NCBI RefSeq assembly: GCF_006337105.1
Contig: NZ_CP040871.1
Location: 2,808,501-2,872,500, forward strand
Reading direction: 5' to 3'
DNA length: 64,000 nucleotides
Source: Thermomonas aquatica
GTDB taxonomy: Bacteria; Pseudomonadota; Gammaproteobacteria; Xanthomonadales; Xanthomonadaceae
Each line of letters begins with the position of its first letter. Position 1 is the first letter of the stretch. The position numbers and the translations under genes were made by a program. Below are positions 6,353 through 20,589 of this stretch, one piece after another. The notes beneath the pieces were generated by a model. It was not told the origin of the DNA. It did not search any database and saw only the letters and a list, made by a program, of their open reading frames with translations.

Positions 6353-7873
6353 ATGCCCACCGCCAAGCAAACACGCCAGGCGAATCGAATCGAGCGCAAC
6401 GCGCCTGCGCCCGCAATCGCGCATCGCGCGCCGGGCGGATCGCGCGTACCGGCATGGTCGAGCGCAAGGCCGGAAGGCGCCAGGGCCGATGCGTCCGCGA
6501 CAGGGCGAGGGCAAGGCCCGATCGCGCGAACAGCGCAGGGCATTGCCCTCTGCCTGGTGTTCGGCTCCGCCATGGCAGCGTGCGCCGCACCGCAGGACGC
6601 CGGGGCGCAACGCACCGACGCCAGCCAGACCGGTTCCAATCCCGCATTGCCTGCGCCCCGCGCGCCGCGCCCGATCCCCACCATCAACATCGCCCCGGCG
6701 GTCGGTTGGCGAGCCGCGGAAAAACCCGAAGCGGCACCGGGTCTCGCGGTGAATGCCTACGCGGAAGGCTTGCAGCATCCGCGCTGGCTGTACGTGTTGC
6801 CGAATGGCGATGTGCTGGTGGCGGAGACCAATGCGCCGCCGAAGCCCGCCGAAACAGGACTGCGCGCATGGTTCATGAAGAAGGTGATGGGCCGCGCGGG
6901 CGCGGGCGTGCCGAGTGCGAACCGGATCAGCTTGTTGCGCGACGCCGACGGCGATGGCGTGGCCGAGACGCGCAGGATCCTGCTGGCCGGTCTGCATTCG
7001 CCCTTCGGCATGGCCTTGGCCGGCGGCCGCCTGTACGTGGCGAATGCCGACGCCATCGTCAGCGTCGCCTGGCGATCCCCGCGCAACGGCATGGCCGCCA
7101 TCGCCGAAGCGCCGCGCAAACTGACGGACTTGCCGGGTGGCCCGCGCAACCATCACTGGACCAAGAGTCTGCTCGCCAGTGGCGATGGCCGCCGCCTCTA
7201 CGTGGGGGTCGGATCCAACAGCAATGCCGCCGAGAACGGCATGCAGGAGGAAGCCTGGCGTGCCGACATCCTCGAGATCGACACCGCAAGCGGCCGCAAG
7301 CGCGTGTTCGCCTCGGGTTTGCGCAATCCGGTCGGCATGGCGTGGGAGCCGGCCACCGGTGCGCTGTGGACGGTGGTCAACGAACGCGACGAACTCGGCG
7401 ACCAGCTGGTGCCCGACTACCTCACCTCGGTGCGCGAGGCCGCGTTCTATGGCTGGCCATACAGCTATTACGGCCAGCATGTCGATGCCAGGGTCAGGCC
7501 GCAGCGGCCGGATCTGGTGGCGCGTGCCATCGCGCCGGACTATGCGCTGGGTTCGCATGTCGCGCCGCTGGGCCTGGCCTTCGCCAAGGGCGCGCGCCTG
7601 CCCGGCTATGCCGAGGGCGCCTTCGTCGGCCTGCATGGTTCGTGGAACCGCCGCGAACCCGCGGGCTACAAGGTCGTGTTCGTTCCCTTCGCCAACGGCA
7701 AGCCGCAAGGCCAACCCGTGGACGTACTGACCGGCTTCCTCGACGGTCGAGGCAATGCGCGCGGCCGGCCCGCCGGGGTGGCGATCGGCGGCGATGGGGC
7801 GCTGCTGGTCGCCGACGATGTCGGCAACCGCGTATGGCGCGTGACCGCCCTGCGCACGCCCGGCAACCGCTGA
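6353..7873 (+). CDS. sorbosone dehydrogenase-family beta-propeller protein
   Basis: 506 residues from the ATG at 6353; AAGGAG ends 7 nt upstream, which decides this start over the GTG at 6347. An unusually long basic N-terminus precedes a hydrophobic segment (IALCLVFGSAMAACAA), possibly a late lipobox or signal peptide. The remainder is a six-bladed propeller of the L-sorbosone/PQQ-glucose dehydrogenase (GSDH) class: LYVGVGSNSN, GLRNPVGMAWEP, TVVNERDELGD and FVGLHGSWNR are family blocks. Such proteins are usually periplasmic and may use PQQ. No PQQ synthesis genes are in the window. Substrate uncertain. The 167 bp before it show nothing coding. Confidence 0.8.
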   Translation: MPTAKQTRQANRIERNAPAPAIAHRAPGGSRVPAWSSARPEGARADASATGRGQGPIARTAQGIALCLVFGSAMAACAAPQDAGAQRTDASQTGSNPALPAPRAPRPIPTINIAPAVGWRAAEKPEAAPGLAVNAYAEGLQHPRWLYVLPNGDVLVAETNAPPKPAETGLRAWFMKKVMGRAGAGVPSANRISLLRDADGDGVAETRRILLAGLHSPFGMALAGGRLYVANADAIVSVAWRSPRNGMAAIAEAPRKLTDLPGGPRNHHWTKSLLASGDGRRLYVGVGSNSNAAENGMQEEAWRADILEIDTASGRKRVFASGLRNPVGMAWEPATGALWTVVNERDELGDQLVPDYLTSVREAAFYGWPYSYYGQHVDARVRPQRPDLVARAIAPDYALGSHVAPLGLAFAKGARLPGYAEGAFVGLHGSWNRREPAGYKVVFVPFANGKPQGQPVDVLTGFLDGRGNARGRPAGVAIGGDGALLVADDVGNRVWRVTALRTPGNR

Positions 7874-7951
7874 AGCCATTCGGATCTTGCGCACTGCGTC
7901 GATCGGCGCTGCATTTCGCCCGTCGTGGCGCTGCACGGTAAGATGGAATCC

Positions 7952-8350
7952 ATGTCCGCTCGCGCCATCCTCCTGCGCCTGTTGCTGTGCTTCGCCCTCG
8001 TGCTCAACGGGGTGGCGCCGGCGATGGCATCCGTGCGGATGCATGCAGGCACGGACGACCGCCATGCCGCCGCGAGCGAACCGGCGCAGGTGGCCGGGCA
8101 TGCCATGCCCTGCCACGAGGACGGATCGCCGCCGATGGCGAGCCCGGAGCAATCGCCCAAGCAACCCGCCGCGCCAGGCTGCTGCAAGTCGGCCACGTGC
8201 GCCTGTGCATGCATCAGCCATGCCGCCGCGTTGCCGCCGGCGATCGCGTTCCACGGTGCGGCGATGCCCCATGCCGGCGACATCCGGCCGATGCCGGCGG
8301 GCCATGCCGCCCCGGCCTTGCCCCACCTGATCCGACCTCCCATCGGCTGA
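7952..8350 (+). CDS. copL: CopL-family metal-binding regulatory protein
   Basis: A 132-residue small exported protein: a hydrophobic signal segment (LLRLLLCFALVLNGVAPAMA), then a His/Met-rich stretch and a Cys cluster CCKSATCACACISH with Cys77, 78, 83, 85 and 87, and another Cys at 54. The position directly before copA and copB matches the xanthomonad copLAB arrangement, where CopL is required for copper-responsive expression of copAB. Two other in-frame starts exist (GTG 7925, ATG 7943); the ATG nearest the signal peptide was taken because signal peptides rarely carry long leaders. Stop to copA start is 116 nt. It may sense or buffer copper in the periplasm. Confidence 0.82.
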   Translation: MSARAILLRLLLCFALVLNGVAPAMASVRMHAGTDDRHAAASEPAQVAGHAMPCHEDGSPPMASPEQSPKQPAAPGCCKSATCACACISHAAALPPAIAFHGAAMPHAGDIRPMPAGHAAPALPHLIRPPIG

Positions 8351-8466
8351 GTGTCCTGCGGCGCCACCGGCGCCGATCCGCATGCGCGCGCGCCTGCCGT
8401 GCGCTGCGCTTGCGGCCTTCGATCCGGCGCCTGCGCTGGACGCCCCGACACCACGATGGAGTTCAC

Positions 8467-10272
8467 ATGTCTTCCGATCCTTTCGGCCGAGATGCCGATG
8501 GCCTGTCCAAGCCTTCGCGGCGGCGATTCGTGCAGGGCCTGGCGGCCGGCGGTGCGATCGCCGGCCTCGGCCTGTGGCCGAAACCCGCCTGGGCATTGAA
8601 AGGGCCCGGCAACGCCAACGTGCTGTCCGGCACCGAGTTCGACCTCACCATCGGCGAGACGCCGATGGCGTTCACCGGGCGCGTGCGCAGCGCGGTCACC
8701 GTCAACGGCTCGCTGCCCGCGCCCGTGCTGCGCTGGCGCGAGGGCAGCACGGTGAACCTGCGGGTGTCCAATGCGCTGCCGGCCGGCTCGGTCCACGGCC
8801 ACGAAACCTCGATCCATTGGCACGGGATCCTGCTGCCCGCCAACATGGACGGGGTGCCGGGCTTGAGCTTCGACGGCATCCATCGCGGCCAGACGTACCG
8901 GTACCGCTTCGATGTCCGCCAGGGCGGCACCTACTGGTACCACAGCCATTCCGGCTTCCAGGAGCAGGCCGGCCTGTACGGCGCGCTGATCATCGATCCG
9001 GTCGAGCCCGAACCGTTCGCCTACGACCGCGATTACGTGGTGCTGCTGTCCGACTGGACCGACCTCGATCCACGGCGGTTGTTCTCGCGGCTGAAGAAGA
9101 TGCCGATGTACGACAACCATGCGCTGCGCACGGTCGGCGACTTCATGCGCGATGCCGGACGCGACGGCCTGGCGGCGACGCTCGCGGATCGCAGGCAGTG
9201 GGGCAGGATGCGGATGTCGCCGACCGACCTGTCGGATGTCAACGCGAACACCTACACCTACCTGCTCAACGGCAGCACCTCGCTGGGCAACTGGACCGGC
9301 CTGTTCCGCGGCGGCGAGAAGCTCCGCCTGCGTTTCATCAACGGCTCGGCGATGACCCATTTCGACGTGCGCATCCCCGGCCTGAAGATGACCGTGGTCG
9401 CCGCCGATGGCCAGTACGTGCACCCGGTGACGGTCGACGAGTTCCGCATCGCCACCGCCGAGACCTACGACGTGATCGTCGAGCCCTCCGGCCAGGACGC
9501 GTTCACCATTTTCGCCCAGGACATGGGCCGCACCGGCTACGTCGCCGGCACGCTGGCGGTGCGCGAAGGCCTGCGCGCGCCGGTCCCGCCGGTCGATCCG
9601 CGCCCGCTGCTGAGCATGGCCGACATGGGGCATGGCGGCATGGCCGCGGCCAAGGCCGGCGAGATGGCCTGCGGCGCGAACATGGGCATGCCGGGCATGG
9701 ACCACGGCGCGAAGCCCGGCATGGGGCATGGCGCCGGCATGCAGTCGCACCCGGCCAGCGAAACCGGCAACCCGCTGGTCGACATGCAGGCGATGTCGCC
9801 GGTGGCGAAACTCGACGATCCCGGCATCGGCCTGCGCGACAACGGGCGCAAGGCGCTGAGCTATTCGATGCTCAAGAGCGCGTTCGACGATCCGGACGGC
9901 CGCGAGCCGGGACGCGAGATCGAACTGCACCTGACCGGCCACATGGAACGTTTCGCCTGGAGTTTCGACGGCCGCAAGTTCGCCGATGCCGAACCGCTGC
10001 GCCTCAACTACGGCGAGCGCCTGCGCATCGTGCTGGTCAACGACACGATGATGACCCACCCGATCCACCTGCATGGCATGTGGAGCGACCTGGAGGACGC
10101 GCAGGGCGGGTTCCTGGTGCGCAAGCACACCATCGACATGCCGCCCGGCAGCAGGCGCAGCTACCGCGTCCGCGCCGACGCGCTGGGCGACTGGGCCTAC
10201 CACTGCCACCTGCTGTACCACATGGAGGCGGGGATGATGCGCACGGTGCGGGTCGGGGAGGGCATCGCATGA
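8467..10272 (+). CDS. copA: CopA multicopper oxidase, copper resistance
   Basis: 601 residues. A twin-arginine signal SRRRFVQGLAAGG (about 17-29) directs folded export to the periplasm. Copper-site motifs are complete: HWHG (His117, His119), YWYHSHSG (His159, His161), HPIHLHG (His531, 534, 536) and HCHLLYHMEAGMM (His579, Cys580, His581, His585, Met590). The region near residues 382-430 is Met/His rich (MADMGHGGM..., GMPGMDHG), as in CopA/PcoA copper-tolerance oxidases, and probably binds extra Cu(I). It should oxidise Cu(I) to the less toxic Cu(II). copB begins within its stop codon, and copL lies upstream. Confidence 0.96.
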   Translation: MSSDPFGRDADGLSKPSRRRFVQGLAAGGAIAGLGLWPKPAWALKGPGNANVLSGTEFDLTIGETPMAFTGRVRSAVTVNGSLPAPVLRWREGSTVNLRVSNALPAGSVHGHETSIHWHGILLPANMDGVPGLSFDGIHRGQTYRYRFDVRQGGTYWYHSHSGFQEQAGLYGALIIDPVEPEPFAYDRDYVVLLSDWTDLDPRRLFSRLKKMPMYDNHALRTVGDFMRDAGRDGLAATLADRRQWGRMRMSPTDLSDVNANTYTYLLNGSTSLGNWTGLFRGGEKLRLRFINGSAMTHFDVRIPGLKMTVVAADGQYVHPVTVDEFRIATAETYDVIVEPSGQDAFTIFAQDMGRTGYVAGTLAVREGLRAPVPPVDPRPLLSMADMGHGGMAAAKAGEMACGANMGMPGMDHGAKPGMGHGAGMQSHPASETGNPLVDMQAMSPVAKLDDPGIGLRDNGRKALSYSMLKSAFDDPDGREPGREIELHLTGHMERFAWSFDGRKFADAEPLRLNYGERLRIVLVNDTMMTHPIHLHGMWSDLEDAQGGFLVRKHTIDMPPGSRRSYRVRADALGDWAYHCHLLYHMEAGMMRTVRVGEGIA

Positions 10273-11237
10273 AGACCCTGGCGACAGGCCTGTTCGGGCT
10301 CGCGCTGCTGTCGGCGACGCCGGCATTCGCGCAGCAGGCGGATCACTCGAAGATGGACCACTCGAAGATGGATCGCGCTGCGCCGGCGGCGAAAGCCGAA
10401 CCCGCGCGGGATGCGCGGGCGCCGGCTGCGCAAACGGCGATCGAGCATGCGCAGATGGATCACTCGAGCATGGGCCATGACATGTCCGGCATGCAGGGCA
10501 TGGCGATGCCGCGCGCCGACGGCCGGCCCGCCACCCCGGTCCCGCCGCCCACCGACGCCGATCGCGCGGCGGCGGTGCCGCCTGCGGGCGGACACGCGAT
10601 GCACGGCACCACGCGGCAGTACTACGTGCTGTTCAATCGCCTCGAGGGATTCGACGCCGGGCCCGGCAGCGGCCAGGCATGGGAAGCGCGCGGCTGGGTC
10701 GGCGGCGACCGCAGCAAGCTCTGGCTGCGCAGCGAAGGCGAGCGCAGCGGCGGGCACGCCGAAAGCGCGGATCTGGAAGTGCTGTACGGGCGCGCGTTCG
10801 CCCGCTGGTGGGAGGTCGTGGCCGGCATGCGCCACGACTTCAAGCCGGGCGCCGCGCAGGACTTCGTGGCGGTGGGCGTGCAGGGGCTGGCGCCGTACAA
10901 GTTCGAGGTCGCGGCCACCGCCTACCTCGGCCGGTCCGGGCAGGCCGGCGCGCGGCTCGAAGTCGAATACGAAACGCGGCTGAGCGATCGCTGGATCCTG
11001 CAGCCGCTGCTCGAACTCGAATTCCATGGCAAGGACGACGCGCGGCGCGGCATCGGTTCCGGACTGGGCACGGCGGAGGCGGGCGCGCGCCTGCGTTGCG
11101 AGGTCACCCGCCAGTTCGCGCCCTACATCGGCATCGTCCATGAGCGGGCGTTCGGCCGCACCTCGGGCATGCGCCGCGCCGCCGGCGAAGAGGTCCGGGA
11201 TACCCGCTTGGTCGCGGGCCTCCGCTTCTGGTTCTGA
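10269..11237 (+). CDS. copB: CopB copper resistance outer-membrane protein
   Basis: 322 residues, overlapping copA by 4 nt. A signal peptide ends near TPAFA-QQ. The mature N-terminus has short Met/His repeats (DHSKMDHSKMD, HAQMDHSSMGHDM), typical copper-binding leaders of CopB. The C-terminal 210 residues (from about TTRQYYVLFNRLEGFD) form the CopB/PcoB beta-barrel domain and end in LRFWF, an aromatic terminus used for outer-membrane insertion. With CopA it gives periplasmic and outer-membrane copper sequestration. Its 3' end faces the 3' end of hvfC, 48 bp away; no strong hairpin was seen between them. Confidence 0.93.
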   Translation: MKTLATGLFGLALLSATPAFAQQADHSKMDHSKMDRAAPAAKAEPARDARAPAAQTAIEHAQMDHSSMGHDMSGMQGMAMPRADGRPATPVPPPTDADRAAAVPPAGGHAMHGTTRQYYVLFNRLEGFDAGPGSGQAWEARGWVGGDRSKLWLRSEGERSGGHAESADLEVLYGRAFARWWEVVAGMRHDFKPGAAQDFVAVGVQGLAPYKFEVAATAYLGRSGQAGARLEVEYETRLSDRWILQPLLELEFHGKDDARRGIGSGLGTAEAGARLRCEVTRQFAPYIGIVHERAFGRTSGMRRAAGEEVRDTRLVAGLRFWF

Positions 11238-11285
11238 GCGGAGAACCGCGCCGCGCCGCGTTGCGGGTCGAGCGCGAACGACCCG

Positions 11286-12026
11286 CTATGCGCGGGTGCC
11301 GGGCAGCACGCCTTCGGCATGCAGGCGTGCCAGCATCGGCACGGCATCGTGCAGGAAGGCGTCGAAGTCGGCTTGCCCGGCGTCATCGGCCAGGCGAAGC
11401 AAGAGCTCGCGTCCACTGCGCCCCGGGTTCGCGCCGATCAGCTCCAGCAATCGGTACAGCAGTGGCGACAGCTTGGAGAAATGCACGCGGCCATCGGATT
11501 CGCGGCGCAACAGGATCAGGGTCGGTTCTGCCGGCGCGGCCGTCGGTTGATGCTCCGGCCCGATGCGGTCCACCGGCCAGCGATAGGCCAACGGCCAGGC
11601 CAGCGGCGACAGCAACGGCACGCCATCGAGCAGGTCGCCGTGCGCATCGTGCGCCGGCATCGGGGCATCGCTGAGCTGCAGGCCGAGTTCGGCCCATTCG
11701 TAATGCGCGAGCTCCGCCAGCCACGGGCGCCGTGGATCGGGTTCGGCTTCGATGTGGGCGATGAGTTCGCGGCCCAGCTCGGTGAACAGCGGCGTCCGGC
11801 TGTGGTGGCGGGCGAGGAAGCCGCGCAGCAGCGCCTGCCAGCCGGCATCGCCCAGGGTCTTGCGGATCACCGGGAAACCGCCGGCCAGCAAGCCGTCCAG
11901 GTTGTTGTAGACCAGGTCGCTGTAGATCTTGAGGCGGCGGGCCTCGATGCCGGGCGGCCCGGCGTGCGCATCCGGATCGCGCACGTGCTGGGCCATCGCC
12001 TCGAATTGTTCGCGCAGGCGGCTCAT
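11286..12026 (-). CDS. hvfC: HvfC/BufC-type DUF2063 protein, partner of the DUF692 enzyme
   Basis: 246 residues with an N-terminal DUF2063 helical domain ([14 protein letters not shown] ... [28 protein letters not shown], about residues 5-60) and a winged-helix-like C-terminus. DUF2063 proteins form a complex with DUF692 iron enzymes and present the precursor peptide to them (MbnC, HvfC and BufC are the known cases). The gene overlaps hvfB by 4 nt, and it closes the operon. No DoxX-like hvfD/bufD follows; the next gene is the convergent copB. Confidence 0.87.
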
Positions 12027-12847
12027 GCGGGCTGCACCTGCAGGTCGCGGATGCGTTGCACTTCGTCCAGCAACACCGGCAACGGCGGGAAGTTGAAGTC
12101 GCGCTCCAGCAGCGTGGGGCGCACGCCGTGCACGCGGTAGGCATGCGCCAGCAGGCCCCAGACGGCGTCCTTCACCGGCGTGCCGTGGGTGTCGATCTTG
12201 AGGTCATCGGCCTCGTCGTAGTGGCCGGCGACGTGGTAGCTGGCGATGCGCGCGGTCGGCATCGCGTCGATGAAGCCGTGCGCATCGTAGCCGTGGTTGA
12301 TGGCATTGACGTGGACGTTGTTGACGTCCAGCAGCAGGTCGCAGTCGGCCTCGCGCAGCACGGCGTCGACGAATTCCACTTCGCTCAAGGCCTGGAACGG
12401 CGCGGCGTAGTAGCTCACGTTCTCGATCGCGATGCGCCGGCCCAGTGCGTCCTGCACGTCGCGGATGCGCGCGGCGACGTGGCGCACGGCTTCGTCGGTG
12501 AACGGGATCGGCAGCAGGTCGTAGAGATGGCCGTCCGCGCTGCAGTAGCTGAGGTGCTCGCTGTACAGCGCGGTCTGGTGGCGTTCGAGGAAATCGCGGG
12601 TCTTGCGCAGGAATGCCATGTCCAGCGGATCCGGCCCGCCCAGCGACAGCGACAGGCCGTGGCAGCTCAGCGGATGCCGCGAGGACAGCATGGCGAGCTT
12701 GTCGCCCAGCCCGCCACCGACGCCGATCCAGTTGTCCGGCGCGCATTCCAGAAAATCGAAGGCGCCCGCGGGCGCCTCGATCAACGCGTCGATCAGCGCG
12801 CGGCGCAGGCCGAGGCCCGCGCTGCGCATCGGCAATGCCTCAGGCAT
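12023..12847 (-). CDS. hvfB: HvfB/BufB-type DUF692 multinuclear iron oxidase (MNIO)
   Basis: 274 residues of the DUF692 (UPF0276) TIM-barrel family. Visible family blocks are [55 protein letters not shown] and YHVAGHYD, which together supply the His, Asp, Glu and Asn ligands of the iron site. Characterised members (MbnB, HvfB, BufB) oxidise cysteines of precursor peptides, giving oxazolone/thioamide or thiooxazole groups. It starts 6 nt after hvfA, whose EGKCG repeats are the expected substrate, and overlaps hvfC by 4 nt. An alternative in-frame ATG is at 12829. Confidence 0.92.
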
Positions 12848-12853
12848 GCGCGG

Positions 12854-13366
12854 TCAGTTGGAACCGCCGCACTTGCCCTCGCCGCATTTGCCTTCGCCGC
12901 ACTTGCCCTCGGCCTTGGCCTTGCCGGCGTCCTGCGCCGGCATGTCCTTCATCGCGGCATGGTGCTGGTCCATCTCGGCCTGGGTGATGAAGCCATCGCC
13001 GTCGATGTCGTGGGCGGCGAACTTCTCCTCCATGCCCTTGTGCGCGGCATCGAACTCGGCGCGCGACAGGCGGCCGTCCTTGTCCGCGTCCATGTCCGCC
13101 ATGGCGTGGTGCTTGCCGGGATTGGGCTTGCCGACGGAGGCGCCACTGCCCTTGGCGGCAGCCTGGTCGCCGCCGCACTTGCCCTCGCCGCATTTGCCTT
13201 CGCCGCACTTGCCTTCGGCGGCCTTGGCTTCGGCCTTGGGGGCATCCTGCATGTAGCCGCTGGCCATCGCCTGCATCGAGAACAGCGAACCGGCGACCAG
13301 GGTGCCGGTGGCGACGGCGGCGCCGATCGCCAGGGCGACCGGCTTGTTGGTTTTGGACTGTGACAT
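12854..13366 (-). CDS. hvfA: HvfA/bufferin-type RiPP precursor with two EF-hands and six EGKCG units
   Basis: The 170-residue precursor starts with a signal segment ending near MQAMASG (about residue 36). Residues 51-65 are three tandem EGKCG units (Cys54, 59, 64). Residues 93-104 (DADKDGRLSRAE) and 120-131 (DIDGDGFITQAE) are two canonical EF-hand loops with all acidic positions present. Residues 153-167 are a second EGKCG triplet (Cys156, 161, 166). EGKCG is the known substrate motif of DUF692 enzymes in HvfA and bufferin precursors, where Cys is converted to a metal-binding group. The start was taken at MSQSKT rather than 8 codons upstream. It leads the hvfABC operon, and a TAGGAT -10-like box (13405-13410, minus strand) lies upstream. 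The EF-hand insertion is unusual. Confidence 0.9.
   Translation of the reverse strand: MSQSKTNKPVALAIGAAVATGTLVAGSLFSMQAMASGYMQDAPKAEAKAAEGKCGEGKCGEGKCGGDQAAAKGSGASVGKPNPGKHHAMADMDADKDGRLSRAEFDAAHKGMEEKFAAHDIDGDGFITQAEMDQHHAAMKDMPAQDAGKAKAEGKCGEGKCGEGKCGGSN
12864..12907. repeat. 44-bp exact direct repeat, copy A (3' EGKCG block of hvfA)
   Basis: These 44 bases are identical to 13170-13213, 306 bp away (102 codons, in frame). They encode the C-terminal EGKCG triplet of hvfA. Identity at third codon positions points to recent duplication or gene conversion rather than independent selection on the peptide. Confidence 0.95.
13170..13213. repeat. 44-bp exact direct repeat, copy B (5' EGKCG block of hvfA)
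   Basis: Exact partner of 12864-12907. It encodes the N-terminal EGKCG triplet of hvfA and diverges at the next base (T here, C in copy A, plus strand). Confidence 0.95.
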
Positions 13367-13469
13367 GGCAACTCCGGCGCGTCGGCGCATCGTGGTGTGC
13401 CGGCATCCTACCGCGCGGACGGCGCTGCCGCGACTTGCCCGAAGGCATCCATGCGGCGGATCGGTGCGT

Positions 13470-14171
13470 TCACACCACCGTGGTGCTGCTTTCGTCGCGC
13501 TTGTCGCGCGGCGGCATCAGTTCCTCGCCGTGGATCAGGAACCACACGTTCTCGGCGATGTTGGTGGCGTGGTCGCCGATCCGCTCCAGGTTCTTGGCCA
13601 TGAACAGCAGGTGCGTGCACGGGGTGATCGCGCGCGCGTCTTCCATCATGTAGGTCAGCAGTTCTCGGAACAGGCCGGTGTACAGGGTGTCCAGTTCGGC
13701 GTCGTTGGCGCGCACGCGCAGGGCGGCATCGCCGTCGCGCTGGACGTAGGCATCGAGCACCTCGCGCACCTGGCGCGCGGCCATGCGGCCGAGCGCGTCC
13801 AGGCCGCGGGTGTGCGGCAGCGGCGGGCTCAGGTTCAGCGCCATCGAACGCTTGGCGATGTTGGCGGCGAGGTCGCCGATGCGCTCGATGTCCGAGGCCA
13901 CCCGCAACGCAGCCAGGATCACCCGCAGGTCCGTAGCCATCGGGCCGCGGCGGATTAGCCGGATCACGTCGTGGTTGACTTGCTGCTCCATTGCGTCGAT
14001 CGCCTCGTCGTTGCCGATCACGCGCTCGGCGGCCTTGTCGTCGCGGCGTTCGACCACGTCGAGCGCGGCATCCAGTTGCGCCACCGACATCTGGCCCATG
14101 CGGATCAGTTCGTCGAGCAGGGCGGCCTGCTCCTGGTCGTAGCTCTTGACGATGTGGTTGTGCTCGTTCAT
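13470..14171 (-). CDS. phoU: PhoU, phosphate signalling protein
   Basis: 233 residues of all-helical PhoU, with two repeats carrying the metal-binding signatures: NDEAIDAMEQQVNHDVIRL and RVASDIERIGDLAANIAKR in the first, ANDAELDTLYTGLFRELLTY and KNLERIGDHATNIAENVWF in the second. PhoU links the Pst transporter to PhoR and keeps the Pho regulon off when phosphate is plentiful. Its ATG overlaps the pstB stop, and it ends the pst operon. The gap to hvfA is 103 bp with no clear terminator. Confidence 0.97.
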   Translation of the reverse strand: MNEHNHIVKSYDQEQAALLDELIRMGQMSVAQLDAALDVVERRDDKAAERVIGNDEAIDAMEQQVNHDVIRLIRRGPMATDLRVILAALRVASDIERIGDLAANIAKRSMALNLSPPLPHTRGLDALGRMAARQVREVLDAYVQRDGDAALRVRANDAELDTLYTGLFRELLTYMMEDARAITPCTHLLFMAKNLERIGDHATNIAENVWFLIHGEELMPPRDKRDESSTTVV

Positions 14172-15013
14172 CAGCCGAAACGTCCCGTGATGTAGTCCTC
14201 GGTCTGCTGCTTCGAGGGGTTGGAGAAGATCTGCTCGGTGGCGCCGTGCTCGACCAGGTCGCCCAGGTACATGAAGGCGGTGTAGTCGGACACGCGCGCG
14301 GCCTGCTGCATGTTGTGGGTCACGATCATGATCGTGAAGTCCTGCTTGAGCTCCTCGACCAGCTGTTCGATGCGGCTGGTGGAGATCGGGTCCAGCGCCG
14401 AGGTCGGTTCGTCGAGCAGCAGCACGTCCGGGCGCAGTGCGACCGCGCGGGCGATGCACAGGCGCTGCTGCTGGCCGCCGGAGAGGCCGAGGCCGCTGGT
14501 CTTCAGCTTGTCCTTCACTTCGTCCCACAGCGCGGCCTGGCGCAGCGCCTGCTCGACGCGCGCGTCCATGTCGGCCTTGCCCAGGCGCTCGTGGTGGCGG
14601 ATGCCGTAGGCCACGTTCTCGTAGATCGTCATCGGGAACGGCACCGGCTTCTGGAACACCATGCCGACCTTGCTGCGCAGGCGGTTCATCGGGTACTTGG
14701 CATCGAGGATGTTCTCGCCGTCCAGCAGCACCTCGCCCTTGGCCTCCAGCTTCGGGTAGAGCGCATAGATGCGGTTGAACACGCGCAGCAGGGTGGACTT
14801 GCCGCAGCCGGACGGGCCGATCAGCGCGGTGACGCGCTTTTCCGGCACCTCCAGGTTGATGTGCTTGACCGCGTGGAACCTGTCGTACCAGAAGTTCAGG
14901 TCGCGCGCGGCGATCTTCACCGGCGGCGCCAGCGGCAGGGCGGCGTCGCGCACGGCGGCGGCGACGGAAAGGCGTGCATCGTTCATGGGATCGATCCGCG
15001 GGAAGTTAGTCAT
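14171..15013 (-). CDS. pstB: PstB, phosphate ABC transporter ATPase
   Basis: 280 residues with a single nucleotide-binding domain: Walker [11 protein letters not shown]-loop [20 protein letters not shown], signature [14 protein letters not shown], Walker [15 protein letters not shown] and the switch His in IVTHNMQQA. KPVPFPMSIYxNV is specific to PstB. Two starts are possible (15013 and the ATG at 14986); the first ten residues are not conserved in the family, so the shorter form of 271 residues may be real. The stop codon overlaps the start of phoU. Confidence 0.97.
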
Positions 15014-15902
15014 TTGCGACTTTGTTGCGCAGTAGCAAGGTGCGCGCGATCAGGCTGATGGCCAGCACGAACAGGGTCACAAGCAGCGCGCCGGCCCAGG
15101 CCAGGTGCTCCCAGTTCTCGAAGCCGGAGCCTGCGAACTTGTACATCACCAGCGGCACCGCGCTCATCGCGCCGGTGACGTCGAGGCTGAAGAACTCGTT
15201 GCCGAAGGCGGTGAACAGCAGCGGCGCGGTCTCGCCGGAGATGCGGGCGAGCGCGAGCAGCACGCCGGTGACGATGCCGGGCAGGGCGCTGCGGTACAGC
15301 ACCTGCATGGTCACCTTCCACTGCGGCACGCCCAGCGACAGCGCGGCTTCGCGCATCTGCACCGGCACCAGCCGCAGCATCTCGTCGGTGGTGCGCACCA
15401 CCACCGGCAGCACGATGAAGGCCAGCGCCAGCGCGCCGCCGATCGCGGAGAAATTGCCGCCGGTCTGCATCACGAACGCCGCGTAGACGAACAGGCCGAG
15501 CACGATCGACGGCGCCGACAGCAGGATGTCGTTGACGAAGCGCACCACCGTGCCGAGCTTGCGGTTGTTGCCGACTTCGGCCAGCCAGGTGCCGGCGGCG
15601 ATGCCGAGCGGCGTGCCGATCGCCACGCCCATGCCGCACATCAGCAGGGACCCGACGATGGCGTTGCGCAGGCCGCCGGCTTCCATCGGCGGCGGCTGGT
15701 CCTGGGTGAACAGCGACGGGCCGAGGTGGGCCAGGCCCTTGGCCAGCAGCGTCCACAGGATCCAGCCGAGGAAGGCCAGGCCGAACAGCGCGGCGGCGCA
15801 GGCCAGCGCGATCGCGATGATGTTGGTGATGCCGCGGCGCCGATACAGCGCGCTGCGCGCCTTGTCGCGGGCCATCGAAGCGGGAGCCGTCGCGGCGCTC
15901 AT
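15006..15902 (-). CDS. pstA: PstA, phosphate ABC transporter permease
   Basis: 298 residues with six membrane segments. The cytoplasmic EAA loop is [21 protein letters not shown], and the family motif [20 protein letters not shown] follows. The ATG at 15902 overlaps the pstC stop by 4 nt, and the 3' end overlaps pstB. With PstC it forms the inner-membrane phosphate channel. Confidence 0.96.
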
Positions 15903-16861
15903 CGGTTGCCCTCCTTGCGTGCCAGCTGCATCAGCATCAGGCGGGCGATCGCCAGCACCACGAAGGTCACGATGAACAGCACGAAGCCGAGCAGCAGCAG
16001 CGCGGCGCGGTAGGTTTCGGTGGCCTCGCCGAAATCGTTGGCGATCAGCGCGGCGATGGTGGTGGACGGTTCCAGCAACGACTTGGTGAAGCCGACGCTG
16101 TTGCCGATCACGAAGGCCACCGCCATGGTCTCGCCGAGCGCGCGCCCCAGGCCGAGGAACACGCCGCCGATCACCGCCGAGCGGGTGTACGGCAACACGA
16201 TGTCCCAGCTCACTTCCCACTTGGTCGCGCCCAGCGCGTAGGCCGATTCCTTCAGCCGCGACGGCACGGTCAGGAACACCTCGCGCATCACCGAGGAGAT
16301 GAACGGGATCACCATGATCGACAGCACGATGCCGGAGGTCAGCATGCCGGCGCCGATCGGCGGGCCCTGGAACAGCGGGCCGATCAGCGCCAGCGGGCCG
16401 ACGTGGTCGTTGAGCCAGGGGATCAGCGATTCGCGCATCACCGGCATCAGCACGAAGAAGCCCCACATGCCGTAGATGATCGAAGGCACGCCGGCCAGCA
16501 GTTCGATCGCGGTGCCCACCGGGGTGCGCAGCCAGCGCGGCGCGACCTCGGTCAGGAAGAAGGCGATGCCGAAGCTCACCGGCACCGCGATCAGCATGGC
16601 GATGATCGCGGTGACCACGGTGCCGTAGATCGGCACCAGCGCGCCGTACTTGTCCTCGACCGGGTTCCAGTCGGTGGAGAAGAAGAAGTCCAGGCCTTCG
16701 CTGGCCAGCACGCTGCGGCCGCCCCACAGCATCGACAGCGCGGCGCCGGCCAGGGTGACCAATACGAACACGGCGGTGGCGGTCAGCAGCCAGCGGAACA
16801 GGCGGTCGTTGCGCGCGTCGACGATGTCGCGCGCCGACGCGGGAAGGGCGGTGGCATTCAT
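15899..16861 (-). CDS. pstC: PstC, phosphate ABC transporter permease
   Basis: 320 residues. The N-terminus precedes the first membrane segment (WLLTATAVFVLVTLAGAAL). Family blocks are LAGVPSIIYGMWGFFVL, the EAA loop RLKESAYALGATKWEVSWD and GRALGETMAVAFVIGN. PstC pairs with PstA. It begins 34 bp after the upstream lipoprotein-type pstS and overlaps pstA by 4 nt, so pstS-C-A-B-phoU reads as one operon. Confidence 0.96.
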   Translation of the reverse strand: MNATALPASARDIVDARNDRLFRWLLTATAVFVLVTLAGAALSMLWGGRSVLASEGLDFFFSTDWNPVEDKYGALVPIYGTVVTAIIAMLIAVPVSFGIAFFLTEVAPRWLRTPVGTAIELLAGVPSIIYGMWGFFVLMPVMRESLIPWLNDHVGPLALIGPLFQGPPIGAGMLTSGIVLSIMVIPFISSVMREVFLTVPSRLKESAYALGATKWEVSWDIVLPYTRSAVIGGVFLGLGRALGETMAVAFVIGNSVGFTKSLLEPSTTIAALIANDFGEATETYRAALLLLGFVLFIVTFVVLAIARLMLMQLARKEGNR

Positions 16862-16895
16862 GCGTGGTCTCGGCTCGATGGGGGACTGGGCGCGC

Positions 16896-17987
16896 TTACT
16901 TCAGCTGCGCCGCCCAGTACGCCTCGACCTGTTGCACCAGTTCCGCCGGCAGCGGCACGTAGTCCAGCGCCTGCGCCTGCGCGCTGCCGTTGCCATGCGA
17001 CCAGCGGAAGAATTCCAGCGCGGCCTTGGCGGCCACCGCGTCGCGCGGCTGCTTGCGCATCAGGATGAAATTGGTGGCGGCGATCGGCCACGCATCGGCG
17101 CCCGGCGCATTGGTGATCACCAGGTTGAAGTCCCGTGCGTTCTGCCAGTCGGCGCTGGCGGCGGCCGCGGCGAAGCTGGCCGCGCTTGGCTGTACCCACG
17201 CGCCGGATGCGTTCTGCATCGCCGCATGCGCCATCCTGTTCTGCAGCGCGTACGACAGCTCGACGTAGCCGATCGCGCCCTTCAGCTGCTTCACGTACGA
17301 GGCCACGCCCTCGTTGCCCTTGCCGCCGACGCTGGTGCCGGTCCAGTTCACGGTGGTGCCTTCGCCGACCTTGGCCTTCCAGTCGGCGCTGACCTTGGAC
17401 AGGTAGTTGGTGAAGTTGTAGGTGGTGCCGGAACCGTCGGAGCGGCGCACCACGCTGATCTTCTCCGCCGGCAGCGCCACGCCCGGGTTGGCGGCGACGA
17501 TGGCCGCGTCGTTCCACATCGCGACCTTGCCCAGGTAGATGTCGGCGAGCAGCGCGCCGGTGAGGCGCAGCTTGCCGGCTTCGATCCCGGGCAGGTTGAC
17601 CACCGGCACCACCCCGCCGATCACCGACGGGAACTGCACCAGGCTGTCCTTGGCCAGTTCTTCCGGTGCCAGCGGCTTGTCCGAGGAACCGAAGTCGACG
17701 GTGCCGGCCTTGATCTGGGCGATGCCGCCGCCGGAGCCGATCGACTGGTAATTGACCTTGTTGCCGGTGGCGGCCGCGTAGTCGGCCGACCACTTGGAGA
17801 TCAGCGGATACACGAAGCTGGCGCCAGCACCGGTGATCTCGGCGGCGACCTTGTCGCCGACCGGGGCCGAAGCCGTCGACGCGGCCTCGCCATTGGCGGC
17901 GGCCGGCGCGGATTCGTTCTTGCAGGCGGTCAGGCCGGCCAGCAGGCACAGGCTGAGGGCGGCGATGCGGGGCAGGGTGCGGTTCAT
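16896..17987 (-). CDS. pstS: PstS phosphate-binding lipoprotein (first paralogue)
   Basis: 363 residues from the ATG at 17987. The leader LSLCLLAGLTAC is a lipobox, so this copy is membrane anchored. The mature protein has the PstS motifs TGAGASFVYPLISKW, YQSIGSGGGIAQI, VDFGSSDKPL and RRSDGSGTTYNFTNYL, which contact phosphate. Around 60% of its blocks read like the second copy (18156-19175); the two arose by duplication. A PHO box lies 56-73 bp upstream of its start. It heads the pstCAB-phoU operon. Confidence 0.95.
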   Translation of the reverse strand: MNRTLPRIAALSLCLLAGLTACKNESAPAAANGEAASTASAPVGDKVAAEITGAGASFVYPLISKWSADYAAATGNKVNYQSIGSGGGIAQIKAGTVDFGSSDKPLAPEELAKDSLVQFPSVIGGVVPVVNLPGIEAGKLRLTGALLADIYLGKVAMWNDAAIVAANPGVALPAEKISVVRRSDGSGTTYNFTNYLSKVSADWKAKVGEGTTVNWTGTSVGGKGNEGVASYVKQLKGAIGYVELSYALQNRMAHAAMQNASGAWVQPSAASFAAAAASADWQNARDFNLVITNAPGADAWPIAATNFILMRKQPRDAVAAKAALEFFRWSHGNGSAQAQALDYVPLPAELVQQVEAYWAAQLK

Positions 17988-18042
17988 CGGGGGCTCGTCT
18001 TCTGGTCGCATTGTTCGGATGGCGACATGAAATGATGTTTTT

Positions 18043-18060
18043 GTGACATGTCGATGACAG
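18043..18060 (-). promoter_or_regulatory. PHO box upstream of the pstS-C-A-B-phoU operon
   Basis: Minus strand reads CTGTCATCGACATGTCAC: two 7-bp PhoB half-sites (CTGTCAT, ATGTCAC) at 11-bp spacing, close to the consensus CTGTCAT-N4-CTGTCAT. It implies phosphate-starvation control by PhoB. Confidence 0.8.
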
Positions 18061-18096
18061 CGCCCCGGCTTTCGTCACAACGCCGGGTTCAGGCGC

Positions 18097-18123
18097 AAAA
18101 AAAAGCGGGCCCGAAGGCCCGCT
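18097..18123 (-). terminator. intrinsic terminator after the second pstS
   Basis: On the minus strand, GCGGGCC-TTCG-GGCCCGC (18105-18122) is followed by eight T (18104-18097). A textbook hairpin plus U-tract 33 bp after the stop codon of the 18156-19175 gene, which separates it from the pst operon. Confidence 0.92.
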
Positions 18124-18155
18124 CGCGACGTACATCCCTGGTCGGGGGATTCGGA

Positions 18156-19175
18156 TCAGTACTTCATCTCGGTCGCCCAGTAGGCGTCGATCTGCTGCAC
18201 CAGCGCATCCGGCAGCGGCACGTAGTCCAGCGCCTTGGCCTGGGCGTCGCCGTTGGCGTACACCCACTTGAAGAAGTCCTTGGCGTTCCTGGCACCGGCG
18301 GCGTTCTTCGGGGTCTTGTACATCAGGATGAAATTGGTGGCGGTGATCGGCCAGCTGTTCTCGCCCGGCGCATTGGTCATCACCAGGTAGAAGTCCCTGG
18401 CGTTCTTCCAGTTGGCGTTGGCGGCGGCGGCGGAGAAGGTGTCGTCGCTCGGGTTGACGAAGTTGCCGGCGGCGTTCTTCATGCGGCTGTAGGTCAGCTT
18501 CTGCTGCAGCGCGTAGGACAGCTCGACGTAGCCGATCGAACCGTTGATCTGCTTGACGTAGGCGGTCACGCCCTCGTTGCCCTTGCCGCCGATGCCGACC
18601 GGCCATTTCACCGCGGTGCCTTCGCCGACCGTGGACTTCCACTGCGCGTTGACCTTCGACAGGTAGTTGACGAAGTTGAAGGTGGTGCCGGAGCCGTCCG
18701 AACGGTGGACCACGGTGATCTTCAGGTCGGGCAGCTTGAGGCCGCCGTTCAGCGCGACGATGCGCGGGTCGTTCCACTTCTCGACCTTGCCCAGGAAGAT
18801 GTCGGCCAGCAGCTCGCCGTCCAGCTTCATCGCGCCGGCGACCACGCCCGGCACCTTCAGCACCGGCACCACGCCGCCGATCACCGACGGGAACTGGGCC
18901 AGGCCGAACTTGTCCAGCTCTTCCGGCTTCAACGGGGCGTCGGACGAGCCGAAGTCGACGGTGCCGGCCTTGATCTGGGCGATGCCGCCGCCGGAGCCGA
19001 TCGACTGGTAGTTGACCTTCTTGCCGGTGGCCTTGGCGTAGTCGGACGACCACTTCGACATGACCGGGTACACGAACGACGCGCCAGCGCCGGTGACATC
19101 GGCGGCCATGGCGCCTGCGGCGAAGCTGGTCGCCAGCGCGAGGGCGGCGACGCGGAATTGGATGGACTTGAACAC
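18156..19175 (-). CDS. pstS: PstS phosphate-binding protein (second paralogue, soluble)
   Basis: 339 residues from GTG 19175, which is preceded by GGAG at 6-nt spacing; there is no better ATG. The signal peptide VAALALATSFAAGAMA-AD lacks a lipobox, so unlike its neighbour this is a soluble periplasmic protein. Motifs TGAGASFVYPVMSKW, YQSIGSGGGIAQ, DFGSSDAPL and HRSDGSGTTFNFVNYL bind phosphate. It has its own terminator and a tandem PHO-box array upstream, so it is a separate strongly inducible unit. Having one anchored and one free PstS suggests different affinities or roles, which is an inference. Confidence 0.95.
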   Translation of the reverse strand: MFKSIQFRVAALALATSFAAGAMAADVTGAGASFVYPVMSKWSSDYAKATGKKVNYQSIGSGGGIAQIKAGTVDFGSSDAPLKPEELDKFGLAQFPSVIGGVVPVLKVPGVVAGAMKLDGELLADIFLGKVEKWNDPRIVALNGGLKLPDLKITVVHRSDGSGTTFNFVNYLSKVNAQWKSTVGEGTAVKWPVGIGGKGNEGVTAYVKQINGSIGYVELSYALQQKLTYSRMKNAAGNFVNPSDDTFSAAAANANWKNARDFYLVMTNAPGENSWPITATNFILMYKTPKNAAGARNAKDFFKWVYANGDAQAKALDYVPLPDALVQQIDAYWATEMKY

Positions 19176-19239
19176 GCGATGCTCCAGAGGTTGTGCACGA
19201 AATTGGAAAGGCGGGCCGCTGCCCGGCTGCGTGCATTGC

Positions 19240-19290
19240 ATAACGGTTCGATGACAGCGCGATGGAGGTGCGATGACAGATCGATGACAG
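19240..19290 (-). promoter_or_regulatory. tandem PHO-box array upstream of the second pstS
   Basis: Five 11-bp-spaced units are visible on the minus strand, starting from 19290: CTGTCAT, CTGTCAT, CCTCCAT, CTGTCAT and CCGTTAT, the strict 11-bp phasing of PhoB half-sites. Three units match the consensus exactly. Two or more PhoB dimers could bind in tandem, predicting strong induction by phosphate starvation. Confidence 0.88.
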
Positions 19291-19309
19291 TGCCGGCCGC
19301 GCGCGAACG

Positions 19310-19336
19310 AAAAAGGGCGCGACTTGCGTCGCGCCC
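19310..19336 (-). terminator. intrinsic terminator after the phosphate porin gene
   Basis: On the minus strand GGGCGCGAC-GCAA-GTCGCGCCC (19315-19336) is followed by TTTTT (19314-19310), 26 bp past the porin stop codon. Confidence 0.9.
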
Positions 19337-19362
19337 CTCCGGGTCCGATGGCGGTGCGGCGC

Positions 19363-20589
19363 TTACCAGAAGAACTGCGCGCGGAACTCGACCACGCTCG
19401 GGTCGTCGTGGAGGATCGCCTTGGCCGTACTGTTGTACTTGCTGCTGGTGACCTTCACGTAGTTCGCCGCCAGCTTGAAGTTGGAGCGCAGGTACCAGTT
19501 CGCGCCCAGCGTCCACGCATCCATCTTGCCGCCCAGCACGCCGGTGACCACCGGGGTGGCGCCGCTGGTGTTCAGGCTGCCGTCGTTGAGGTCGATGGTG
19601 TCGTAGCGCAGGCCGACCTGCCACATGCCGGATTCCGGCTCGTTCGGCAGCGGGGTGGTCGGGGTGCCCGCCTTGTAGCCCCAGGTCTCGCCGGTCACGT
19701 TCCACAGCGCGCTGAGGTAGGCACCCTTGCCGGTGAAGTCGGAGAAGCTGCCGCCGCGACCGGTGGTGCTGCGCATGTACTCGCCCTGCAGCTTGAACGG
19801 TCCCTTGACCCACATGCCTTCCAGGCCGGTGGTGGCGACCTTGTCGGCCAGGGTCAGGTTGCCGGTATCGACCAGGCGCACGCCGGACAGGTCGGCGTTC
19901 GGGCGGGCGCGCCAGCGCTGGGTATCCTGCACGTTGTTGCCGACGGCGCCGAGTTCGGCGTCATAGCGGGCATACGACAGGCCGAGGTGCAGGAGGTTGC
20001 CGGTCTCGTTGATCGGCGCCCAGGTGCCGCGCAGGCCGAAGCCGTTGCCGGCGCCCAGGTTGCGGGTCAATTCGCGGCCGAACACGCTGCCGGTCACGCT
20101 CCAGTTGGCATCGCCCATGCCGTAGGCGACGCCGACGCGGCGGGCGACTGCCCAGGTATTGGTGATGGTGGCCTTGGAGATGAAATCGTTGTTCTTGGTC
20201 GAGCTCAGCTCTTCCAGGCTGTTGGGCTGCTTGAACTGGCCGAACTGGACGAAGTTGCTGCTGTTGCCGCCGATCTTGTACTTCAGGTTGGTATCCAGCC
20301 ACTTGTCGGCCTTGGCGTCGTAGCCGAGCACCCACTCGAAGTTGCCCGGGCCCTTGCCTTTCAGGACCAGCTCGGCGCGGCGCAGCTTGAAGTCGCCGTC
20401 CTTGCCGTCGGTGGCCGAGCCGTTGAGGTTGGCCAGGTCGCTGTGGAACCAGTTGGCGTCGGCCTGCAGCAGGCCCTCGAAGCTGACTTCGGAGCCGGCG
20501 ATCACGTCGATCGGCACTTCCGCGTGCGCGGCCGGGGCGGCGAGGGCGGCCAGCAAGGCCATGGACAGGGTGCGGCGGGAGAGTTTCAT
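19363..20589 (-). CDS. OprO/OprP-family phosphate-selective porin
   Basis: 408 residues with signal peptide LSMALLAALAAPAAHA. The mature protein alternates polar and aromatic residues as in a 16-strand porin and ends in EFRAQFFW, the C-terminal aromatic signal for barrel insertion. Blocks DFKLRRAELVLKGKGPGNFEWVLGYDAK and FVQFGQFKQPNSLEELSS are typical of OprO/OprP/PorP porins, which pass phosphate or pyrophosphate across the outer membrane. It lies beside two pstS genes. One PhoB half-site (TTGTCAC at 20675-20669, minus strand) is upstream, but no full PHO box. Confidence 0.9.
   Translation of the reverse strand: MKLSRRTLSMALLAALAAPAAHAEVPIDVIAGSEVSFEGLLQADANWFHSDLANLNGSATDGKDGDFKLRRAELVLKGKGPGNFEWVLGYDAKADKWLDTNLKYKIGGNSSNFVQFGQFKQPNSLEELSSTKNNDFISKATITNTWAVARRVGVAYGMGDANWSVTGSVFGRELTRNLGAGNGFGLRGTWAPINETGNLLHLGLSYARYDAELGAVGNNVQDTQRWRARPNADLSGVRLVDTGNLTLADKVATTGLEGMWVKGPFKLQGEYMRSTTGRGGSFSDFTGKGAYLSALWNVTGETWGYKAGTPTTPLPNEPESGMWQVGLRYDTIDLNDGSLNTSGATPVVTGVLGGKMDAWTLGANWYLRSNFKLAANYVKVTSSKYNSTAKAILHDDPSVVEFRAQFFW

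Follow-up and report, generated by a model that had tools for sequence, protein, structure and literature searches.

Organization of the hvfABC locus

The DNA analyzed in this work is a stretch of 64,000 nt from Thermomonas aquatica (contig NZ_CP040871.1, positions 2,808,501 to 2,872,500), referred to below as the window. It carries on its minus strand a three-gene operon whose first gene (12854..13366) encodes an hvfA-like precursor of 170 amino acids. The open reading frame starts with ATG at 13366 and ends with the stop codon at 12856-12854; an alternative in-frame ATG at 13390 would extend the product to 178 amino acids. An earlier inspection of the letters alone (the sequence-only reading) gave the right span and named no strand; the gene belongs to the minus strand, and the plus strand of 12854-13366 holds a frame unrelated to the precursor.

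The precursor comprises, in this order, an export-type hydrophobic N-terminus (residues 1-35; 13262..13366), a block of three EGKCG motifs (residues 51-65 with Cys54, Cys59 and Cys64; 13172..13216), two EF-hand loops (residues 93-104 and 120-131; 13055..13090 and 12974..13009) and a second block of three EGKCG motifs (residues 153-167 with Cys156, Cys161 and Cys166; 12866..12910), all encoded on the minus strand. By our reading the signal would be cleaved after AMA. Both EGKCG blocks read EGKCGEGKCGEGKCG, and the corresponding 45-nt stretches of DNA differ by a single base (GAA/GAG). The NCBIfam model KCGExKCG_twice (NF050137) recognizes three stretches of the precursor with 32.2 bits (cut-off 19.5), and the HvfA equivalog model NF050188 gives 23 bits, below its cut-off of 95, so that the protein is not an HvfA in the strict sense. 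Loop 1 (DADKDGRLSRAE) and loop 2 (DIDGDGFITQAE) have acidic ligands at positions 1, 3, 5 and 12, and the Pfam models EF-hand_1, _5, _6 and _7 score over their cut-offs (best E 6.1e-8), EF-hand_5 (PF13202) in two stretches with 28.9 bits (cut-off 25.9). The open reading frame and the Pfam and NCBIfam matches thus bear out what had been proposed from the letters alone: two identical EGKCG triplets placed around a pair of canonical EF-hand loops.

An AlphaFold2 model of the precursor based on 38 sequences (mean pLDDT 60.8, pTM 0.39) contains a confident EF-hand pair, with block-mean pLDDT of 90-94 at residues 91-140 and low values in both tails (38-41 at residues 41-80 and 47-48 at residues 151-170). 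A Foldseek search of the PDB with this model gave no match at E <= 0.001; the best hit had an E value of 0.068 and the hits were mostly EF-hand proteins. Three other identities were considered and rejected: a lanmodulin (NF053806, 17.8 bits against a cut-off of 135), a XopAW-type calcium-binding effector (NF041410, 27.9 bits against 120, with similarity confined to the EF-hands) and a protein of viral origin, for which a scan of viral contigs returned only two EF-hand matches covering residues 88-136.

The second gene, hvfB (12023..12847, minus strand), encodes an MNIO (DUF692) maturase of 274 amino acids that matches PF05114 with E 4.8e-101 and the model "HvfB family MNIO-type RiPP peptide maturase" (NF003818) with 421.9 bits (cut-off 360); its relatives in the PDB are 3bww and MbnB. 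The third, hvfC (11286..12026, minus strand), encodes a DUF2063 partner of 246 amino acids with 269.1 bits for the model "HvfC family RiPP maturation protein" (NF050145, cut-off 142). Both models being passed, the precursor does head an operon with a DUF692 enzyme and a DUF2063 partner, as the sequence-only reading had it. These data support the identification of the window protein as an EGKCG precursor, encoded next to genes for an MNIO and for a partner of the HvfC type, and equipped with an EF-hand pair of the calcium type.

Upstream of hvfABC on the same strand lie phoU and pstB-like genes (13470..15013, minus strand), assigned by the Pfam models PhoU and ABC_tran and by synteny. A simple, crude scan detected neither promoter nor terminator in 13200-13700, and no Rfam match to a structured RNA was found in 7500-19500. 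Two tandem open reading frames at 16896-19241 (minus strand), upstream of the pst transporter genes, are pstS-like (phosphate-binding) by reading. On the other side, multicopper oxidase and CopB genes (7925-11237, plus strand; Pfam) are convergent with hvfABC and possibly form a copLAB-like group; the small open reading frame preceding the multicopper oxidase gene gave no Pfam match and is presumably CopL-like. The gene next to the operon is the convergent copB, and DoxX (hvfX), frequent but not universal in EGKCG clusters, is absent beside hvfABC in the window. The genome has a second MNIO gene (L001; G000:C1:1582177-1582968) in what looks like a bufferin cluster, with a Cys-rich CK-motif open reading frame without Pfam match upstream and a DoxX-domain one downstream.

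EGKCG motifs on both sides of the EF-hand pair

At E <= 0.001 the precursor matches 1429 of 3048 candidate proteins. The best 120 of these 1429 homologs were classified, and two (P0066 and P0098) were left out as they lack a recognizable EF pair; EGKCG-type motifs stand on both sides of the EF pair in 117 of the remaining 118 and on the N-side only in one. A narrower EGKCG pattern applied to the best 120 gave 110 with motifs on both sides, seven C-only and three N-only. Since homologs were ranked by likeness to a query with two blocks, this sample leans towards the both-sides form. Among 80 named genome loci, 27 combine an EF hit with two or more EGKCG-type motifs in a single frame: 15 with motifs on both sides (the sandwich form), 11 N-only and one C-only. 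Thirteen of the 15 sandwiches come from Thermomonas, Vulcaniibacterium, Pseudoxanthomonas, Luteimonas, Lysobacter and uncultured Xanthomonadaceae, the other two from one Moraxellaceae and one gammaproteobacterial MAG. The N-only loci belong to Pseudomonas (ten) and Nitrosospira (one). The C-only locus, L230 of a Flavobacteriales MAG, encodes an EF-hand pair with a KCGDGKCGDGKCG tail at the C-terminus, and no HvfB was found in its fetched flank. The fetched flanks encode HvfB at 14 of the 15 sandwich loci against one of the 11 N-only loci, two of which (L220 and L227) lie on contigs ending about 0.3 kb past the gene and are uninformative on HvfB or MNIO.

The finding of N-only chimaeras in Pseudomonas, in Nitrosospira and at four sampled loci of the window's own family, together with the freely varying numbers of EGKCG repeats among homologs, would suit a model in which the N-side block alone is the true substrate, and its C-side counterpart a by-product of repeat formation with little role. 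Against such a model stand the C-side residues E163, G164, C166 and G167, which are invariant among 38 aligned homologs, and members richer in C-side than in N-side motifs (one N-side and three C-side in L146, one and four in L185), and we regard it as quite improbable.

The 44 of 45 identical bases of the two blocks in the window prompted a comparison of EGKCG units at the DNA level in the 33 loci, among 41 EF-bearing ones, with exact EGKCG on both sides. N- and C-side units of the same gene differ at 1.13 of 15 nt (275 pairs) and units of different genes at 1.37 (8205 pairs). Concerted evolution or gene conversion was rejected as the signal is weak; codon bias may account for most of it.

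The predicted calcium-binding core

The loop ligands are kept in all 42 sandwich proteins compared. In loop 1, position 1 is D, position 3 D or N, position 5 D and position 12 E in all 42; loop 2 differs from this only at position 5, with D in 41 proteins and N in one. Such conservation indicates that Ca2+ binding by the sandwich EF-hands is very likely under selection.

Free Ca2+ in the cytosol usually lies far below 13.7 μM. For EfhP of Pseudomonas (PA4107) the available text of PMC9132961 gives a Ca2+ Kd of 13.7 μM and describes the decalcified protein, on the basis of NMR, as a likely molten globule and the hydrophobicity of the protein as shifting with Ca2+. By analogy with EfhP, a relative by architecture, this Kd favours folding of the EF core of the window protein after its export.

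Among the 118 homologs retained from the best 120 of 1429, the residue six positions ahead of loop 1 is Cys in 82 cases and His in 27; the 46 sampled loci give 32 Cys and six His. In the window protein it is His87. As His is frequent in this region, the pattern is no more than suggestive.

Joint loss of EGKCG motifs and maturase genes in Thermomonas

A match to the precursor was found in all 25 Thermomonas genomes. Eighteen of them, the window's included, have a sandwich with hvfB beside it, and HvfC is matched at E <= 1.2e-35 in all 18. The other seven (G014, G015, G016, G017, G019, G021 and G023) encode an EF-hand pair with no EGKCG and no hvfBC; four of these have no HvfC match and three have matches at E >= 2.2e-8 only. 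The weak HvfC matches listed for Thermomonas, ten in number, each lie beside an MNIO of the genome's other cluster. Four of the seven lack any MNIO. With kinship ignored, the chance of this perfect 18/7 split is 2e-6. On a tree of the IleRS marker with 25 rows the sandwich/EF-only label requires four changes, at least three of them forced by supported branches, and it is somewhat clustered (10-11 of 500 shuffles are as low). Repeated disappearance of EGKCG from proteins that retain the EF-hands points to two separable parts. That relatives have repeatedly lost the tails together with the enzymes seems not to have been reported before.

The EF-only proteins match the precursor with E values of 3.4e-20 to 8.9e-13. 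Their gene directly follows phoU, with hvfBC gone, in three of the seven genomes (L287-L289); at the other four loci (L290-L293) there is no phoU in the stretch examined. The mature part of all seven is, by reading, devoid of Cys; L288 and L289 have one each, located in the hydrophobic signal. Histidines of the exiting helix are common to EF-only and sandwich proteins; past this helix, the tail has two to four His in all seven EF-only proteins, against none in 16 and one in one of 17 sandwich relatives. The C-terminus ends in His throughout L287-L293, and the ending EHAGHH in five of the seven suggests common descent of some EF-only proteins and not seven inventions. The EF-only genes, above all L290-L293, may be foreign replacements or an older paralogue kept after loss of the sandwich; no second EF protein of comparable score was found in the sandwich genomes, the next matches having E >= 3.4e-9.

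Independent turnover of the EF module

Seven genomes of 25 with an EF pair and neither EGKCG nor hvfBC indicate that the pair is useful alone, as would be expected of an EfhP-like calcium sensor in which the EF pair works in envelope Ca2+ signalling and the modified cysteines serve as an auxiliary second input or as an anchoring site for a different metal. The Ca2+-dependent hydrophobicity of EfhP is in keeping with such a role, and so is the dual Ca/Fe sensing suggested for EfhP in the accessible part of PMC11559002. Precursors without EF-hands point the other way: they are common beside the same maturases (69 of 119 distinct open reading frames, in a set biased by the searches), and the HvfB tree shows frequent changes of EF state, so the EF pair is not needed for the precursor role. 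A partner protein for the sensor is not known, and the C-terminal extension of the EfhP type is absent from the window protein. We consider a calcium sensor unlikely.

With the EF or EF-less state of the neighbouring precursor mapped on a tree of 99 HvfB sequences, no fewer than 11 changes are required (shuffled mean 32.7), six of them forced by well-supported branches. This tree was built by a quick method with no bootstrap. Rows with an HvfB match shorter than 200 amino acids, identical rows and rows with fewer than two EGKCG-type motifs in frame were left out, as were L084, for its very long branch, and L116 and L125, whose genomes were already represented by other loci; L138, which shares its genome with L084 and has an equally long branch (5.46), was kept. 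A more careful tree of 89 rows, in which the EF-bearing L197 carried the EF-less label, gave eight changes of that label, five of them forced. The export region is common to EF-bearing and EF-less precursors, and the GY-type motif that follows it is present in 44 of 46 EF-bearing proteins by pattern and in most EF-less ones by reading. The turnover of the EF state and the shared export region mean that related maturases serve both kinds of precursor; the EGKCG and EF modules have been gained and lost separately.

Conserved gene order

Gene order was compared in the window and 60 loci chosen, not at random, among high-scoring matches. At the 39 sandwich loci of the window's family (window included) hvfB and hvfC are downstream in all 39, and phoU precedes the operon on the same strand at a distance of up to 6 kb in 38 loci and of up to 1 kb in 29. 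Sampled EF-less loci of the family have hvfBC in 16 of 16 and phoU in eight of 16 cases, sampled N-only loci in three and none of four, and sandwich loci from other families in two and none of two. In gene order, phoU/pstB is the conserved address of hvfABC in the window's family. The order pstB-phoU-hvfABC (L145-L204) is often continued by an RNase T-like gene, assigned in one relative by a Pfam scan and in the others by the first residues.

The constancy of this address and the lack of a visible promoter in the window's phoU-hvfA interval (crude scan) could mean that hvfABC is read together with pst-phoU and serves in phosphate or calcium-phosphate stress, copper not being the main ligand. 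The same address is used by half of the sampled EF-less loci and is missing from both sandwiches of other families, so it may reflect shared ancestry only and is by itself no proof of a phosphate function; of the explanations considered here we give this one very little credence. A general link to copper through the neighbourhood was likewise rejected. CopA adjoins hvfABC at one of the 39 family sandwich loci, the window itself, and as pst-phoU is the conserved neighbour, gene order gives copper no general support.

Proposed function of the sandwich precursor

We favour, as somewhat more likely than not, the explanation that hvfABC produces an exported copper-binding metallophore protein of the captophorin/HvfA type, with thiooxazole tails and a separable Ca2+-dependent core. 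In the cytosol, HvfB and HvfC would act on both tails, oxidizing their EGKCG cysteines to 5-thiooxazoles as in characterized EGKCG systems, while the EF-hand pair, judging from EfhP, would be empty and loosely folded, so that neither modification nor export is blocked. After export, Ca2+ would fill the EF-hands, the core would fold, and the two flexible modified tails would be left free to sequester copper. The strict association of EGKCG on the EF protein with hvfBC (18 of 18 against none of seven Thermomonas genomes) was counted in favour of this explanation, along with hvfB and hvfC downstream at all 39 family sandwich loci, the conserved loop ligands, the AlphaFold2 model, the captophorin and EfhP literature, and the multicopper oxidase gene and copB facing the operon in the window's genome. 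Counted against it were the restriction of the copper-gene neighbour to the window, the lack of an adjacent DoxX, the failure of the simple scan to detect a promoter or terminator, the persistence of EF-less and EF-only forms, the weak Foldseek hits, and the lack of published cases, in the literature covered, of MNIO action past an EF-hand domain. Sequestration of copper by thiooxazole tails is likely by analogy with the characterized systems, and a two-metal function of the precursor is plausible.

A tighter coupling of the two metals can be imagined, in which the core is soft and empty in the cytosol while the tails are modified, and periplasmic Ca2+ then joins the tails into shared Cu sites, to which the frequent Cys or His six residues before loop 1 might belong; on loss of the maturases EGKCG would disappear and the calcium core be kept, with a His tail that may bind metal unmodified. 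Clamping of the tails triggered by Ca2+ is possible, and the persistence of both EF-less and EF-only forms argues against any obligate Ca/Cu coupling; we hold this elaborated version to be rather unlikely.

The separable metallophore protein that we favour has a wider bearing. MNIO enzymes have mostly been studied on short flexible peptides. A precursor with a foldable insert separating its two modification sites can show whether these enzymes act on proteins, and how such a substrate remains accessible to both modification and export. For the role of each part, ready comparisons come from lineages in which the maturase and the EGKCG sites, or the EF-hands, have been lost.

Comparison with known systems

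The captophorins are among the closest known systems. According to the text of PMC13097082, fontiphorin, oxazolin and gonophorin carry 5-thiooxazoles, fontiphorin binds copper, the 5-thiooxazole revises an older oxazolone/thioamide assignment, and captophorins is the name given to the class; in NedA, according to the accessible text of PMC12636315, three EGKCG motifs each undergo a shift of -4 Da. HvfA/oxazolin, fontiphorin and gonophorin share with the window protein the EGKCG repeats, the HvfB-type MNIO, and the HvfC-type partner; captophorins also have a signal peptide, and the N-terminus of the window protein reads as a putative one. Unlike the window protein, captophorins come with no mention of an EF-hand in the available text of PMC13097082 and PMC13419390, where the term occurs 0 times.

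EfhP resembles the window protein in its EF-hand pair, EGKCG repeats (four, as stated in the text seen of PMC11559002, from 2024) and predicted periplasmic location, and efhP was reported in 2014 to lie beside DUF692 and DUF2063 genes in P. aeruginosa (available text of PMC4053335). The ten Pseudomonas relatives in our set, EfhP-like by reading and not including EfhP itself, differ from the window protein in having EGKCG on the N-side only, the last Cys nine and not six residues before loop 1, and a C-terminal ANGKKMPxGLF extension that the window protein lacks; no MNIO was found in their fetched flanks, those of L220 and L227 being cut short by the contig end. The EF-only Thermomonas proteins have a related EF pair and, in three of seven cases, the same place after phoU, and differ from the window protein by the absence of EGKCG and hvfBC and by a tail ending in His.

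Chimaeras of EGKCG and EF-hands linked to MNIOs were published in July 2025, with copper and Ca2+ roles suggested and EfhP cited (text of PMC12452194, as far as available). They contradict the statement of the sequence-only reading that HvfA and bufferin precursors lack an EF-hand module, and its main claim to novelty fails with them; that reading had itself allowed that known precursors of this architecture would undo it, which applies to EF-hand precursors in general and not necessarily to the both-sides form. The Buf_EGKCG/EF-hand_5 chimaera of that paper agrees with the window protein in two EF-hand_5 domains, in the MNIO and DUF2063 genes, and in a short EGKCG part that has no 17-residue repeats and is predicted to be unstructured. 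Its EF-hands are, per the text, C-terminal of EGKCG only. In the window protein, too, the EF-hands (93-131) follow a short EGKCG part (51-65), and an equal block is added at 153-167. EGKCG on both sides of EF-hands is not described in the texts, figures and supplements aside, of PMC12452194, PMC13097082, PMC13419390, PMC12538549, PMC12636315, PMC4053335, PMC11559002 and PMC9132961, so that the two-sided form seems to be undescribed; nor did the accessible literature on EGKCG/MNIO systems yield an MNIO acting on a block that lies past an EF-hand domain. The EGKCG/EF-hand kind of precursor is thus already known, and the new part is its two-tailed variant with the pattern of its loss.
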